Part shown: in pieces, positions 1,415 to 27,983 of the stretch
How positions within the stretch are numbered: position 1 is the first letter of the stretch
Layout of the letters: each line of letters starts with the position of its first letter
From: a virus
Length of the DNA stretch: 31,403 nucleotides
Strand: one strand, 5' to 3'
IMG/VR virus record: IMGVR_UViG_3300032665_000132
Location: 1 to 31,403 of that record
The notes under the pieces: generated by a model
What the model was told of the DNA's origin: nothing
Databases searched by the model: none
What the model saw: only the letters and a program-made list of their open reading frames with translations
Position numbers and translations under genes: made by a program

Positions 1415-1696
1415 CTAGTAATAGTGAACACGAGTTGTGTCGGTATTATGGAAGCGAGCATCGTAGTCTTCCATGTGCTGCCCGTCGACGGGGCTGATGT
1501 TGACACCTGGCCGATGGCCGGGAGGCACCTCACTTTCTGTCAGATACCCAAAGCCACGATAATTCCCGGTCGATAACAGCACAGACTCAAGTACCGTTAT
1601 CATACCCCGCCGTTGTTCCGGGCCGAGAGTACTCTCGGAAAGCATCTTGTTAACCGAAGCGGTTAGCTCCGCAATATTAATAGTTTTCCTAGCCAT
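1415..1696 (-). CDS. Unknown protein, first gene of leftward operon (93 aa)
   Basis: The ATG at 1696 follows GGAGAGGGATTCTC and lies about 30 bases downstream of the leftward promoter at 1725-1753. The N-terminal 45 residues (MARKTINIAELTASVNKMLS, then LGPEQRRGMITVLESVLLSTG) look helical. The C-terminal half is Gly/Pro/His-rich (GYLTESEVPPGHRPGVNISP, ending DTTRVHYY). I recall similar small proteins in unrelated phages but cannot name the family. Confidence 0.65.
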   Translation of the reverse strand: MARKTINIAELTASVNKMLSESTLGPEQRRGMITVLESVLLSTGNYRGFGYLTESEVPPGHRPGVNISPVDGQHMEDYDARFHNTDTTRVHYY

Positions 1697-1710
1697 GAGA
1701 ATCCCTCTCC

Positions 1711-1858
1711 ATCATCATATATGCATCTTATACCAATTAAAGAAAAAAGTCAAACTAATCATATCAATAGGTTAGCGCTAACCTATTGATTTCCTTACAA
1801 ATAAAAAAGTAAGTTTCTTAAACTTTTTTCGTTCTAATAGAATCAATGGGTTATGTGA
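1711..1858. repeat. Left arm of large imperfect inverted repeat
   Basis: Read on the minus strand, this arm matches 2042-2197 in the same order: iteron, a 34-bp block, a second iteron cluster, then the promoter. The 34-bp block is identical in inverted orientation (1814-1847 versus 2051-2084). A 28-bp perfect palindrome at 1763-1790 is made of two abutting iterons. The rest of the arm is diverged, with small insertions and deletions. Confidence 0.85.
1725..1753 (-). promoter_or_regulatory. Leftward early promoter, conserved type
   Basis: On the minus strand TTGACT (1753-1748) is followed after 17 bases by TAAGAT (1730-1725). It runs directly into GCATATATGATG and a GGAGA ribosome site. The same string occurs at 2157-2197 and 2432-2472 on the other strand. 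An alternative -10 is TATAAG preceded by TGG with 15-bp spacing, but only TAAGAT is conserved in all three copies. It should drive the leftward genes 1696 to 1. Confidence 0.75.
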
Positions 1859-2147
1859 GAGACGATGCTAAGGCTGTCAGGGTGGTATAAACCCACCTCT
1901 AGTGCTGCTTAGTTCGGCATTTTTAGCTAACGTATTGATAAGATTGGTATTTTTTCCAAACGTGCCTAGGCCTAACCCATTGATTTCATTAGGTTTTGGC
2001 AAGTAGAATCCTCATAAGAACGTCTGGTCCCAGGCCTTCTAAGCTAACGTATTGATTCTATTAGAACGAAAAAAGTTTAAGAAAACCTACTTTTTTATGT
2101 TCAATCATATCAATGGGTTAGGCACCTTACCTGGCTAACGTATTGAT
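1763..2147. repeat. Iteron array (eight 14-bp copies), origin- or operator-like
   Basis: The element GCTAACGTATTGAT and close variants occur forward at 1777, 1926, 1971, 2043 and 2134. It is inverted at 1763-1776, 1842-1855 and 2109-2122. ATTGAT is invariant; the two bases after TAAC vary (CT, GT or CC). Copies at 1763 and 1777 form a perfect palindrome; copies at 2109 and 2134 form a spaced inverted pair. In both arms a pair sits just upstream of the promoter. This is the layout of a regulator-binding array or a replication origin; the sequence alone does not decide. There is no gene in 1697-2212. Confidence 0.8.
1865..1924 (+). other. Large hairpin at centre of the control region
   Basis: ATGC (1865) can pair with GCAT (1917-1920), TAAG with CTTA inside it, and GGTGG (1881-1885) with CCACC (1893-1897) at the apex. 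Five T residues follow at 1920-1924, so in RNA it could act as a terminator. It is the main single-copy feature between the inverted arms. An origin-associated structure or a small RNA are alternatives. Confidence 0.4.
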
Positions 2148-2197
2148 TTCCTTGGTTTGACTTTTTTAAGCATTTGGTATAAGATGCATATATGATG
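2042..2197. repeat. Right arm of large imperfect inverted repeat
   Basis: This arm mirrors 1711-1858. It contains iterons at 2043, 2109 and 2134, a 34-bp block identical to the inverted left block, and the rightward promoter at 2157-2185. The block is followed in both arms by an ACTTTTTTAT-like string and a pair of iterons. Divergence between the arms lies mainly in spacer sequence, suggesting that the iterons, the block and the promoter are the conserved functional parts. Confidence 0.85.
2157..2185 (+). promoter_or_regulatory. Rightward early promoter, conserved type
   Basis: TTGACT (2157-2162), a 17-base spacer and TAAGAT (2180-2185) are followed by GCATATATGATG. It is the mirror image of the leftward promoter at 1725-1753. 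TGG immediately before the overlapping TATAAG (2178-2183) could also act as an extended -10. Two iterons lie within 50 bases upstream, so binding there would be placed to control it. Confidence 0.75.
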
Positions 2198-2212
2198 TTA
2201 ATGGAGATAGGT

Positions 2213-2428
2213 GTGACCGATTATTCTGACGGTGTTAAAGCTTTGGCCGATGCTACTTTGAAAGCAATTCGGGATGCCGATGCTGTTATCAAAGATTATA
2301 ACGATATTATAGATTATCTCGACCAAACCATGGAAATAATCCAGCCGTCAGGGTCGGATGAAATTCTTGGCGATTACATGTATATCGAGGCATGGGATAT
2401 GATTGCCCGCGAATTGGGTGTAAAATAG
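2213..2428 (+). CDS. Small acidic helical protein (71 aa)
   Basis: I place the start at GTG 2213 (residues VTDYSDGVKALADATLKAIR), six bases after GGAG. An ATG at 2192 lies inside the conserved promoter-proximal motif and has no ribosome site. The protein is acidic and probably helical, with a DYNDIIDYLDQTMEII stretch. It is the first rightward gene of the divergent control region. No family recognised. Confidence 0.6.
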   Translation: MTDYSDGVKALADATLKAIRDADAVIKDYNDIIDYLDQTMEIIQPSGSDEILGDYMYIEAWDMIARELGVK

Positions 2429-2460: not shown

Positions 2461-2484
2461 GCATATATGATGGTGGAGATAGAT

Positions 2485-2964
2485 ATGTTGCTCAAACTAG
2501 TCAGATTGCCCGATAGGCTCAAGGCCCATCGGTCTGATATTCGGTCGGCGCTAAAATTCTATTCCACCATCTTGCTTGGCCCGCGGCTGACAGAGAATAT
2601 TGAACTTGATGTCGAGTTCGATCCGACTCTTCACGAACGCGCTAGCGAATATGCATTTATGAACCCAGAGGATGACGGACGGTCGCCGCGTTGGTTTACG
2701 ATCACTGTTGACGCCAATATGGAATTTGACACTTTACTTAAGACGCTTGCCCATGAAATGGTGCATGTCAAACAGTATGCCAGGAATGAACTCAGACATG
2801 TTGCAAAAGGTGGCGGTCGTCTTCACAAATGGTTCAATGAAACTATTGATGACGAAAAGGTAAACTATTGGGATCTTCCCTGGGAAATTGAGGCTTTTGG
2901 TCGCGAACAAGGGCTCTTTGTTCGGTATATCGAATCGAAAGGTGAAACCGATGTACATAATTAA
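2485..2964 (+). CDS. SprT-like zinc metallopeptidase
   Basis: The 159-residue protein (ATG at 2485, six bases after GGAG) contains HEMVH at residues 90-94, a classic HExxH zinc site, within LLKTLAHEMVHVKQYAR. E134 in LPWEIEAFGRE is a plausible third ligand. This arrangement resembles SprT/Spartan-like and related phage peptidases, which cleave proteins, sometimes DNA-bound ones. No signal peptide is present, so it should act in the cytoplasm. It has its own promoter and overlaps the next gene by 14 bases. The fold call is good; the substrate is unknown. Confidence 0.75.
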   Translation: MLLKLVRLPDRLKAHRSDIRSALKFYSTILLGPRLTENIELDVEFDPTLHERASEYAFMNPEDDGRSPRWFTITVDANMEFDTLLKTLAHEMVHVKQYARNELRHVAKGGGRLHKWFNETIDDEKVNYWDLPWEIEAFGREQGLFVRYIESKGETDVHN

Positions 2965-3510: not shown

Positions 3511-3716
3511 GTGTCCTTAGCTCAGTTGGATAGAGCAACAACTAAAAAATTTAGTTATTCTATCTAGTTTAGAAGAAATAAAACAGTTTGCTCTTATGGT
3601 GAAATAGGATATCACACGGGTCTTCTAAACCCAGATTCTAGGTTCGAGTCCTAGTGAGAGCGCCAACCTATCTTCTAAGCTGTGGGCCGGTGGTTCGAAT
3701 CCCCTACGGGATACCA
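3511..3716 (+). pseudogene. Interrupted tRNA-Arg(UCU) relic
   Basis: The 5' end (3511-3542) has a tRNA acceptor/D-arm signature, CTTAGCTCAGTTGGATAGAG. The matching 3' half (about 3670-3716) has an anticodon-like CTTCTAA, a T-loop TTCGAAT and a terminal CCA. Between them lies about 130 bp, including a complete tRNA-Arg of the same anticodon. The acceptor strands pair poorly (GTCCT against ACGGGAT) and the T-stem has a mismatch, so the split copy looks decayed. The insert starts with a hairpin AACTAAA/TTTAGTT. Confidence 0.6.
3590..3665 (+). tRNA. tRNA-Arg (anticodon UCU)
   Basis: The acceptor GCTCTTA pairs with TGAGAGC, followed by G and an encoded CCA. The D-stem GTGA/TCAC and the anticodon loop CTTCTAA give anticodon TCT, reading AGA. 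The T-arm TAGG-TTCGAGT-CCTA is canonical. It lies inside the interrupted tRNA-Arg relic of the same specificity. An extra AGA reader would suit this AT-rich genome. Confidence 0.85.
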
Positions 3717-3742
3717 ACTTAAACTTATGTGGAGAATACAAT

Positions 3743-3964
3743 ATGAATAAGCCTGCTACTGATCGTGTGTTTGCTCTTTTGGAACGTGGACAATCCTTGA
3801 CGGCCGAACAAATTTCAAACCGTTTTAATGTAAGTAACCCATATCATGTTGTATATTCATTGCGAAATCGTGGTCTAAATATTATTACTACACCTCATAC
3901 TATTCGTGGTAAGACGGTATCTAAGTATAGTTATATTGCGCCACGATCTAGGAAGAAGATGTAA
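3743..3964 (+). CDS. Small winged-helix-like DNA-binding protein (73 aa)
   Basis: The protein begins MNKPATDRVFALLERGQSLT after GGAGAATACAAT. Residues 8-45 (LLERGQSLTAEQISNRF, then NVSNPYHVVYSLRNRG) fit a helix-turn-helix with a recognition helix. A wing-like strand pair follows (LNIITTPHTIRGKTVSKYSY) and the tail is basic (PRSRKKM). Proteins of this pattern are common in T4-like phages near tRNA genes. It could bind DNA as a small regulator; no target is known. The next tRNA starts 10 bases after its stop. Confidence 0.6.
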   Translation: MNKPATDRVFALLERGQSLTAEQISNRFNVSNPYHVVYSLRNRGLNIITTPHTIRGKTVSKYSYIAPRSRKKM

Positions 3965-3973
3965 AACAAGTTT

Positions 3974-4048
3974 TCGGGTGTAGCTCAGTGGTAGAGCAAT
4001 CGGCTGTTAACCGATCGGTCGTAAGTTCGAATCTTACCACCCGAGCCA
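3974..4048 (+). tRNA. tRNA-Asn (anticodon GUU)
   Basis: The acceptor TCGGGTG pairs perfectly with CACCCGA, followed by G and CCA. The D-arm is GCTC...GAGC. The anticodon stem ATCGG/CCGAT encloses CTGTTAA, giving GTT. The T-arm is GTAAG-TTCGAAT-CTTAC. All arms are intact. Confidence 0.93.
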
Positions 4049-4206
4049 GTTTGCCGGATTAGTAACAAGCGGTTCCTAGGTCTGCTTGGGTCTGTACCGG
4101 TAGAGGATCCCGACACCTCTATAAAAACGCGGAGGTTTGCCCCTCAAGGGGAATAACCGGTCACTCCGGTTCGAGCTGGGCGATCTCGTGAAACTGCCCT
4201 AGCCAG
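4049..4206 (+). ncRNA. Structured non-tRNA segment in the tRNA cluster
   Basis: This stretch between tRNA-Asn and tRNA-Thr folds by eye into successive hairpins. TAGAGG (4101) pairs with CCTCTA (4116). CCCC-TCAA-GGGG lies at 4140-4151. ACCGG-TCACT-CCGGT lies at 4156-4170. GGGC (4178) pairs with GCCC (4196), and CTAGG near 4076 can pair with CCTAG near 4198. It is bounded by a direct repeat CCAGTTTGCCGGATTAG at 4046 and 4203, the second copy being the start of tRNA-Thr. It has CCA at its 3' end but no tRNA fold. T4 makes stable RNAs C and D from its tRNA region; this may be comparable, but no homology is shown. Confidence 0.5.
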
Positions 4207-4209
4207 TTT

Positions 4210-4284
4210 GCCGGATTAGCACAGTGGTAGTGCAGCGGTTTTGTAAACCGAAGGTCGGGAGTTCAAATCTCTCATCCGGCACCA
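4210..4284 (+). tRNA. tRNA-Thr (anticodon UGU)
   Basis: The acceptor GCCGGAT pairs with ATCCGGC, then A and CCA. The D-arm is GCAC...GTGC. The anticodon arm is GCGGT-TTTGTAA-ACCGA, giving TGT and reading ACA. The T-arm is GGGAG-TTCAAAT-CTCTC. The first bases are also present in the direct repeat before the structured segment upstream. Confidence 0.92.
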
Positions 4285-4291
4285 AATTGTT

Positions 4292-4378
4292 GGGGATGCG
4301 GCACAGTTGGAGAGGTGCGGCAGACTGTAAATCTGTTCCTTAATTGGTGAGTTAGTTCGAATCTGACGATCCCCACCA
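4292..4378 (+). tRNA. tRNA-Tyr (anticodon GUA)
   Basis: The acceptor GGGGATG pairs with GATCCCC (one mismatch at the base), then A and CCA. The anticodon arm CAGA-CTGTAAA-TCTG gives GTA. A long variable arm (about 15 bases) precedes the T-arm GTTAG-TTCGAAT-CTGAC, as expected of a bacterial class II tRNA-Tyr. Confidence 0.9.
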
Positions 4379-4389
4379 AATAAGTTTGA

Positions 4390-4466
4390 TCTAGATACGA
4401 TTGGGAAGTCTCTGGTCGTCGCGATGCTAGACAACATTCAGGCCAAGTCGTGCGGCCTAGTTTTAT
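4390..4466 (+). ncRNA. Structured spacer between tRNA-Tyr and tRNA-Ser
   Basis: TCTAG (4390-4394) can pair with CTAGA (4427-4431), and AGGCC (4440) pairs with GGCCT (4454-4458), followed by AGTTTTAT. The second hairpin may act as a processing signal or weak terminator within the tRNA transcript. No tRNA fold is visible. It may be a stable RNA or only a structured spacer. Confidence 0.3.
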
Positions 4467-4472
4467 AATAAA

Positions 4473-4564
4473 GGAAGTGTGACCGAGAGGCCTATGGTAG
4501 CGGTTTGCTAAACCGCCGAACTCTACTAGGGGTTCCGAGGGTTCGAATCCCTCCTCTTCCGCCA
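4473..4564 (+). tRNA. tRNA-Ser (anticodon GCU)
   Basis: The acceptor GGAAGTG pairs with CTCTTCC (one mismatch), followed by G and CCA. The anticodon arm GCGGT-TTGCTAA-ACCGC gives GCT. A long variable arm and a perfect T-arm GAGGG-TTCGAAT-CCCTC complete a class II tRNA-Ser. Confidence 0.92.
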
Positions 4565-4569
4565 ATTAT

Positions 4570-4646
4570 CAGGGAATAGCTCAATCTGGCAGAGCATTGC
4601 GTTTGGGACGCAAAGGTTGCAAGTTCAATTCTTGCTTCCCTGACCA
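4570..4646 (+). tRNA. tRNA-Pro (anticodon UGG)
   Basis: The acceptor CAGGGAA pairs with TTCCCTG, then A and CCA. The D-arm is GCTC...GAGC. The anticodon arm TTGCG-TTTGGGA-CGCAA gives TGG, reading CCA. The T-arm is GCAAG-TTCAATT-CTTGC. It is the last tRNA gene in the cluster. Confidence 0.93.
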
Positions 4647-26824: not shown

Positions 26825-27209
26825 ATGTCTTATTTTAGGTGACAGCATAGCAGTTGGCACACATCAGTATCGTGCAGAATGTGCTGTGTATGCAAGCAGT
26901 GGTATCACCAGTCATGCTTGGCTTCATCGCTATGCAAATGCAGACTTGACTGCAAAAACTGTTGTCATCAGTTTGGGCAGCAACGACTCTGAACAAGGTT
27001 CTCGACAGGATTTGGAAATGATTCGCAACCGAGTGCAAGCCGATACTGTGTTTTGGATTGTACCGGCTATCAAACCATATGTGCAGGAAATCGTTAAAAG
27101 TGTGGCCTCTGAACATCATGACAGGATAATTTATATTCCAGTAATCTCATCGGATGGTGTGCATCCCAATGCAAAAGGTTATAAAATGATAGCAGAGCAA
27201 ATACGATGA
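26814..27209 (+). CDS. SGNH-hydrolase-like protein (131 aa)
   Basis: From ATG 26814 the protein begins MIFECLILGDSIAVGTHQYR. The GDS of block I supplies the nucleophile Ser, SLGSNDSEQ gives the block III Gly-x-Asn-Asp pattern, and SSDGVHPNAKGYK gives the C-terminal Asp-x-x-His. This is the SGNH/GDSL esterase layout, at 131 residues a minimal domain. SGNH enzymes deacylate lipids or carbohydrates, and the phage role may be modification of a surface glycan. It lacks a signal peptide. Translation probably depends on the upstream mini-frame. Confidence 0.75.
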   Translation: MIFECLILGDSIAVGTHQYRAECAVYASSGITSHAWLHRYANADLTAKTVVISLGSNDSEQGSRQDLEMIRNRVQADTVFWIVPAIKPYVQEIVKSVASEHHDRIIYIPVISSDGVHPNAKGYKMIAEQIR

Positions 27210-27373
27210 TATTTCACGAGATTTGTCAAGTTGGAGGAAAGGTCTGGAATCAAGTCAGACGACAGGTCAATGATGAGGTTGTGTATCAGGTCGGTGATCA
27301 GGTCTGGAGTCGGGCCTGGAATCATGTCAAGGTTCAGGTCTGGTATCAGGGTTGGGATGATTTAAGATGGTAA
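27206..27373 (+). CDS. QV-repeat protein, copy 1 (55 aa)
   Basis: The sequence MIFHEICQVGGKVWNQVRRQ followed by VYQVGDQVWSRAWNHVKVQV is a degenerate repeat of a Q-V-x-x-Q-V-W type. It overlaps the SGNH stop by 4 bases and the next copy by 7. Repeats of this kind occur in phage and other genomes with no known function to me. The end GWDDLRW matches copy 2 (MDDLKW). Confidence 0.5.
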   Translation: MIFHEICQVGGKVWNQVRRQVNDEVVYQVGDQVWSRAWNHVKVQVWYQGWDDLRW

Positions 27374-27528
27374 AGAAAAGTATTGATAAAGTCAGGGATC
27401 AGGTCTATAATCAGGTCAGTTGGCAAGTCTGGTATCAGGCTTGGTATCAGGTTGGGTATCGGGTCTGGAATCATGTTAATCAGGTAGAAAATGGCGGTGT
27501 TCAGGCCATGGATGATCTAAAATGGTGA
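27367..27528 (+). CDS. QV-repeat protein, copy 2 (53 aa)
   Basis: It starts MVKKSIDKVRDQVYNQVSWQ and continues VWYQAWYQVGYRVWNHVNQV, the same repeat type as its upstream neighbour, and ends MDDLKW. The ATG overlaps the neighbour's end, and the downstream truncated copy repeats its start. It appears to be part of a tandem duplication. Confidence 0.5.
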   Translation: MVKKSIDKVRDQVYNQVSWQVWYQAWYQVGYRVWNHVNQVENGGVQAMDDLKW

Positions 27529-27836: not shown

Positions 27837-27983
27837 ATGCAACTTTATAAAGATGAAGAAATTATCAACAGTTTGGTATATTATATCAATCGGTTGGTTG
27901 TAGGTGATGATTGTATGGAATCACTAACAGAAACCATGCAGAAATTTGGTTTTTGGGATCAAGATGGATTCATTCCCTGTTGA
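27837..27983 (+). CDS. Small acidic unknown protein (48 aa)
   Basis: I use ATG 27837, 8 bases after GGAGG, giving MQLYKDEEIINSLVYYINRL and ending FWDQDGFIPC. An in-frame ATG at 27810 overlapping the previous stop is a possible longer start. No family recognised. Confidence 0.55.
   Translation: MQLYKDEEIINSLVYYINRLVVGDDCMESLTETMQKFGFWDQDGFIPC

Follow-up and report, generated by a model that had tools for sequence, protein, structure and literature searches.

Between two divergent genes of the uncultured virus record IMGVR_UViG_3300032665_000132 (31,403 bp, analysed over its whole length and called the window here), positions 1,697 to 2,212 hold a repeat-rich region, of which a stretch of ~430 bases bears eight precisely spaced site copies. 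With moderate confidence, we propose that this region is a DNA-architectural module for the control of early transcription, in which seven to eight sites of the integration host factor (IHF) type stand in a fixed order between divergent sigma70 promoters. The original prediction, made from the sequence alone, had offered either an iteron replication origin or a clustered operator between divergent promoters. The operator reading agreed well with the data, as the array is conserved with both promoters and its outer site lies 10–11 bp from the -35 hexamer. Since the layout is kept in related phages, we favor an early-gene control module over a plasmid-style replication origin. Such an early-gene control module looks previously undescribed, and a literature search covering few subscription papers returned no earlier paper describing these motif strings or an array of this type.

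The repeat array and its divergent promoters

The word TAACNNATTGAT was counted in exactly the eight copies that had been predicted, at 1763 (-), 1779 (+), 1842 (-), 1928 (+), 1973 (+), 2045 (+), 2109 (-) and 2136 (+), together spanning 1763–2147. There was no exact match elsewhere in the record, and the reversed control pattern gave 0 matches. When up to one mismatch was allowed, the window contained 15 matches against 6.1 expected, 7 of the 15 being scattered and chance-like. We also shuffled the 501-bp region 20,000 times and obtained a maximum of 1 copy per shuffle. A chance pattern or an assembly artefact, to which we assign a negligible probability, could draw on the AT-richness of the region only, and is opposed by these shuffles and by the occurrence of the same module in contigs from other samples. 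We rejected this candidate on the grounds that the module recurs across contigs.

The other structural claims for the region also held. The 28-bp perfect palindrome lies at 1763–1790, where sites A1 and A2 face each other and together form it, and the 34-bp block at 1814–1847 is exactly repeated in inverted orientation at 2051–2084. Between the minus-strand start codon at 1696 and the plus-strand one at ~2213 there is no open frame longer than 44 codons, and the same sigma70-type promoter is read at both ends. Longer inverted arms, 1713–1776 and 2134–2197 (64 nt, 84%), take in both promoters, so that the ends share an identical TTGACT-N17-TAAGAT-GCATATATGATG. Specifically, the left promoter (1725–1753, minus strand) has TTGACT at 1753–1748, a 17-bp spacer and TAAGAT at 1730–1725, with a transcript predicted to begin GCATATATGATGATGG; the right promoter (2157–2185, plus strand) has TTGACT at 2157–2162, a 17-bp spacer and TAAGAT at 2180–2185, with a transcript predicted to begin GCATATATGATG. 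The inverted repeats fall outside the predicted transcripts. Because the sequences are sigma70-like and small genes of unknown function follow downstream, both promoters are probably of the early type. A second early-type promoter without an upstream site, TTGACT-N17-TAAGATGCATATATGATG, was seen at 2432–2470 between the first and second rightward genes. As such secondary promoters downstream are free of sites, the array would not govern all early transcription.

From left to right, the array begins with site A1 (1762–1774, plus strand; TATCAATAGGTTA, fitting WATCAANNNNTTR) and site A2 (1779–1791, minus; AATCAATAGGTTA, with a TTTTTT A-tract 5' of the site). Site A3 (1841–1853, plus; AATCAATGGGTTA) overlaps the 34-bp repeat at 1814–1847 and has a TTTTTT A-tract 11 bp away on its 5' side. 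Beyond the center come A4 (1928–1940, minus; TATCAATACGTTA, with an A6 tract 9 bp away on the 5' side) and A5 (1973–1985, minus; AATCAATGGGTTA), which stands in tandem with A4 at 45 bp, a distance that is 35 bp in most relatives. Site A6 (2045–2057, minus; AATCAATACGTTA) overlaps the 34-bp repeat at 2051–2084 and is an additional site peculiar to the window's own subclade. The array ends with A7 (2108–2120, plus; TATCAATGGGTTA, with a T6 tract 11 bp away on the 5' side) and A8 (2136–2148, minus; AATCAATACGTTA), whose 5' arm crosses the right promoter's -35 hexamer. The central segment (1854–1927; GGTGGTATAAACCCACC, TGCTTAG) carries no sites. In an alignment of 25 such segments, a dyad-like core was weakly conserved among the relatives. 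This core is GGTATNATAACCC- or GGTATAAACCC-like with CTTAG/CTAAG flanks and was observed in either orientation, in the window as well as in relatives.

Identity of the repeat

Read on the opposite strand, all eight window copies (8/8) are WATCAANNNNTTR, the IHF consensus, which has been given as TAAnnnnTTGATW / WATCAAnnnnTTR (PMC10380432). An IHF site covers 35 bp in total, and an A-tract on its left (5') side raises affinity (PMC8421141). The window sites have A/T tracts of 4–6 bp at 8–13 bp from the core. After deduplication, 111 sites in 16 phage contigs entered the motif statistics, with the near-identical sister contig G001 left out. An A or T homopolymer 4 nt or longer occurred at -20 to -7 in 88/111 sites, compared with 11/111 in the mirrored 3' window, and one of at least 6 was present upstream of 28 sites and in none of the mirrored windows. 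Flanking positions that lay outside the selection gave a strict WATCAA in 69% of the sites. Each of positions -4, -3, -2, -1 and +12, likewise outside the selection, is restricted either to A/T (W) or to G/C (S) and hardly favors one base of the pair over the other; such a constraint fits minor-groove or shape readout. From these sequence features we infer that the array consists of sites for host IHF or an IHF-like protein. A search for phage-encoded IHF/HU (PF00216) found none in 22 records, many of which are fragmentary.

Conservation and spacing in related phages

The original prediction had suggested looking for the repeats in related phages, and this search showed that the module recurs in an uncultured T4-like clade. 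In scans of IMG/VR it was present in many contigs, including some from other samples, with 7–8 sites each. The aligned modules share a common plan, consisting of a promoter, A1 facing A2, A3 back-to-back with A2, a site-free center, A4 and A5 in tandem, A6 in the window's subclade, A7 facing A8, and a second promoter; this plan is met in either direction relative to the genes. The phages that carry it have diverged to ~65% identity in gp43 and to 34–44% in a protein of the phrog_10499 family, and the motif is retained over GC contents of 36–53%. Some genomes have extra clusters, namely three in G003, two in G004 and several single or paired sites in G020, and some copies are partial.

Both promoters are kept in the relatives' modules. 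The distance from the -35 TTGAC to the outermost TTGA was 10 or 11 bp in 34 of the 44 arms left after deduplication; almost every exception is an internal TTGAC word rather than a promoter. The fixed distance to both promoters and the conservation in relatives expected of a clustered operator were both found, with 15 non-redundant modules. The arm of two sites plus a promoter (-35 TTGAC) was recovered in 40 viral stretches. A slightly stricter form (-35 TTGACTTT) had 0 matches in 84,980 species genomes, and the promoter-coupled pattern in bacterial genomes yielded 59 taxonomically scattered stretches without motif clusters, which we took as chance.

In the same 15 modules, facing sites lie 15 or 26 bp apart and tandem sites 35 or 45 bp apart. 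The A3–A4 distance falls into classes of 85, 95–97 and 103–105 bp, the A5–A7 distance into classes of 90, 100–102 and 111 bp, and the back-to-back A2–A3 distance is mostly 64–66 bp. The tandem and back-to-back distances are compatible with 35-bp footprints. As the classes differ by ~10 bp, which is one helical turn, helical phase is kept. Coherence at 10.5 bp was R = 0.91 with every class included and 0.81 with just the two variable ones (p ~5e-5 against a uniform null), a figure to be read with the leniency of that null, uniform per class range where some spacings dominate, and with the choice of modules on tandem spacing near 35 or 45.

Which protein binds the sites

Apart from these two limits on the phasing result, several further points weigh against IHF as the binder. 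Positions +4 and +7 were set by the search pattern, and their conservation therefore carries no independent weight. If IHF needs its whole 35-bp footprint, sites that face each other at 15 bp would overlap by ~4 bp. IHF as the binder is a prediction from sequence, and its presence in the host is presumed; a search for the host with the porin-like protein of one relative gave no match in eight bacterial genomes. Among cultured phages of the T4 superfamily, no arrays were found in Melnitz, Cr30, T4, HTVC008M, phiW-14, pf16, S-PM2, KVP40, AG-345-O18 and P-SSM2, and for phiM12 and P-HM2 there was no array among the matches listed. T4 itself had zero WATCAAYNNSTTA matches, and the region had no match among cultured phages by megablast or blastn. 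Moreover, other groups (L047, L048 and L003) and the Stenotrophomonas phage DLP6 have similar motifs that overlap one another or recur at 25-bp intervals. Such motifs are too close for two IHF dimers, indicating that something else uses the word there or that one site is used at a time. The word alone is therefore not diagnostic; it is the A-tract, the spacing and the promoter anchoring together that single out the module. Overlapping dyads such as TAACTTATTGATTATCAACACGTTA, with the word twice back-to-back and not shareable by two IHF dimers, were observed in the viral contigs L003, L014, L032, L047, L048 and L049.

The main rival is a phage-encoded regulator acting on the same sites. More broadly, a phage or host regulator other than IHF could bind them as a master operator or activator cluster, in which case the likeness to IHF sites would be partly coincidental and the A-tracts would serve as bent spacers or UP elements. 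We regard this explanation as possible, if on the unlikely side. The G-bias at +5, +6 and +11 exceeds the known IHF consensus, a conserved AA at -7/-6 also lies outside it, and TTTCAA replaces WATCAA in 24% of the 111 sites, all of which would suit another protein; the G-bias and the TTTCAA variant also count against IHF. The fixed 10–11 bp to the -35 hexamer would equally suit an activator contacting sigma, and the related DLP6 words form tandem pairs upstream of promoters at the close spacing noted above. In addition, the gene at 3743 encodes a winged-helix protein (HTH_39), which the original prediction had suggested as a binder and which remains a candidate for the array sites. Against such a regulator, the bias of A-tracts to the 5' side, the tandem spacing of 35 bp and the W/S degeneracy are features of IHF sites, and no regulator is clearly common to all module contigs, which are fragments. 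By BLAST, relatives of the 3743 product were confined to the near-identical sister contig and to G003 and G023, two distant and incomplete module contigs.

Proposed mode of action

Under the IHF reading, host IHF or a close functional equivalent would bind each site and bend the DNA by ~160 degrees. The facing, tandem and back-to-back sites would then fold ~390 bp into one compact complex linking both promoters. In the window, the -35 hexamers fall inside the predicted 35-bp footprint of the outermost sites. IHF on A1 or A8, with 20 bp of its footprint toward the 5' side, would cover the -35 hexamer in competition with RNA polymerase, and early transcription of both operons would be set jointly by IHF occupancy of the array. 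Because the -35 would be occluded, repression or delay is slightly more likely as the net effect than activation. A bolder version, which we consider rather improbable, is a nucleosome-like viral early switch, where a phased array of host IHF shuts the divergent promoters and the onset of infection reads host physiology; the same complex might also start replication. IHF level and occupancy would in that case track growth state and supercoiling.

T4-type early promoters are usually viewed as simple strong host promoters. If our proposal is correct, an architectural layer of control is added to them, and the level of a host protein becomes an input to early phage transcription. The natural variants, which differ in length by whole helical turns, offer a ready-made test of DNA-looping geometry.

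The replication-origin reading

An iteron replication origin as the defining function was not borne out, given the IHF consensus with its 5' A-tract, the multiple clusters of several genomes, no iteron-type initiator identified among the proteins examined, and replication genes of the T4 type. The iteron reading of the repeats is probably wrong. More generally, the region might be an origin whose repeats are either initiator-binding iterons or architectural sites that assist duplex opening next to the R-loop of an early promoter, a mechanism put forward for T4 oriE; we judge an origin here to be quite improbable. T4 oriE uses an early promoter near a change of transcription direction (PMC3016281), with repeats close by; our region is likewise a switch point and combines strong early promoters with A/T tracts. 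In E. coli, IHF participates at oriC (PMC10380432), and T4 uses several origins, with which several modules per genome would be compatible.

Against these likenesses stand the T4-type replisome found in place of any iteron-type initiator among the proteins examined, and the secondary motif clusters in several genomes. The module also lacks the direct tandem repeats of iteron origins, its sites being in both orientations and anchored to promoters. In the sister contig, GC skew beside the module showed no informative switch. In T4 oriE, the repeats lie within the coding sequence of gene 5 at a 24-bp period and are unrelated in sequence; a repeat shared with oriE was accordingly rejected, since both sequence and period differ. 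The earlier remark that no such layout is known from well-studied T4 origins needs a correction: iterons have been published for oriE (PMC3016281). The main oriE repeats we found differ in sequence from ours. Compared with iteron plasmid origins of the R6K gamma type, the module has a similar cluster of repeats with A/T-rich DNA, but its bidirectional sites are anchored to two promoters, no Rep initiator occurs among the proteins examined, and several clusters are present in some genomes.

Gene context of the module

The virus record encodes a T4-type DNA polymerase gp43, UvsX and gp41. Six tRNA genes (Arg, Asn, Thr, Tyr, Ser and Pro) lie near the module at 3590–4646, and tRNAs were the sole family matches in an Rfam scan of the window. 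The first gene of the leftward operon (1415–1696, minus strand) is an open reading frame (ORF) of 93 aa with unknown function, preceded on inspection by a GGAGAGG ribosome-binding site 5' of the ATG at 1696; PHROG and Pfam searches gave no match. The first rightward gene (2192–2428, plus strand) is also of unknown function and without a match in family searches, its probable start by inspection being GTG 2213 after GGAG (71 aa). It is followed by a phrog_10499 protein of unknown function (2467–2964, plus strand; probable start ATG 2485), whose relatives carry an HEMVH motif. In relatives where both were seen, the phrog_10499 gene has the module or a motif cluster nearby.

Elsewhere in the window, two more IHF-consensus matches (TATCAACAGTTTG and TATCAATCGGTTG, 21 bp apart) were noted in an intergenic gap at 27863–27896. 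Small repetitive proteins of ~68 aa, for example with DQVKYQVRYQVWYQ runs, are encoded at 27206–27528 and in relatives, amounting to 36 copies in 11 contigs.

Comparison with known systems

Lambda attP and cos and the Mu early operator contain known IHF sites that form architectural complexes. Clusters of IHF sites are classic in lambda attP and cos, and the module might by analogy be a site of recombination, packaging or segregation, with an attP-, cos- or parS-like nucleoprotein complex; this we hold to be highly improbable. Two unrelated loci do carry clusters of the same word, one at L035:8864–9318 beside a terminase large subunit gene and the other at L042:1417–2250 in a contig with tail-fibre genes, and these are possibly cos-like IHF sites. 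The module, by contrast, belongs to a T4-type phage with polymerase, UvsX and gp41, lies between divergent early promoters, and in some genomes occupies more than one position; the subset of ORFs that was scanned contained neither an integrase nor ParB. Its resemblance to lambda attP and cos, the Mu early operator and E. coli oriC consists of WATCAANNNNTTR with a 5' A-tract and of several sites in what would be a bent nucleoprotein complex (for the site and oriC, PMC8421141 and PMC10380432). It differs from them in having 7–8 sites in ~390 bp between divergent T4-like early promoters, helical-step spacing and several clusters in some genomes.

Another comparison is with DLP6, a member of the T4 superfamily, where AATCAACGACTTA fits the WATCAANNNNTTR frame and lies upstream of sigma70-like promoters. 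Its genome has ~14 intergenic groups and one triple, mostly pairs of AATCAACGACTTA 25 bp apart (loci L154–L168; for example 45310–45347, 48053–48090 and 144740–144778 of KU682439.2), standing upstream of a promoter of the TTTACT...TATAAT type. In the literature these paired motifs appear as PHIRE 'phage promoters' and are depicted as late promoters (PMC5349666), but they resemble upstream elements belonging to promoters of the sigma70 type. In contrast to the module, they are tandem pairs with no clear A-tract and one promoter, often with a terminator-like hairpin between, and they probably do not form the same complex.

A further parallel is the control of alphaproteobacterial phages by CtrA (PMC9437464), which involves a different protein and a different motif, and in which sites for a host regulator likewise lie within phage promoters.
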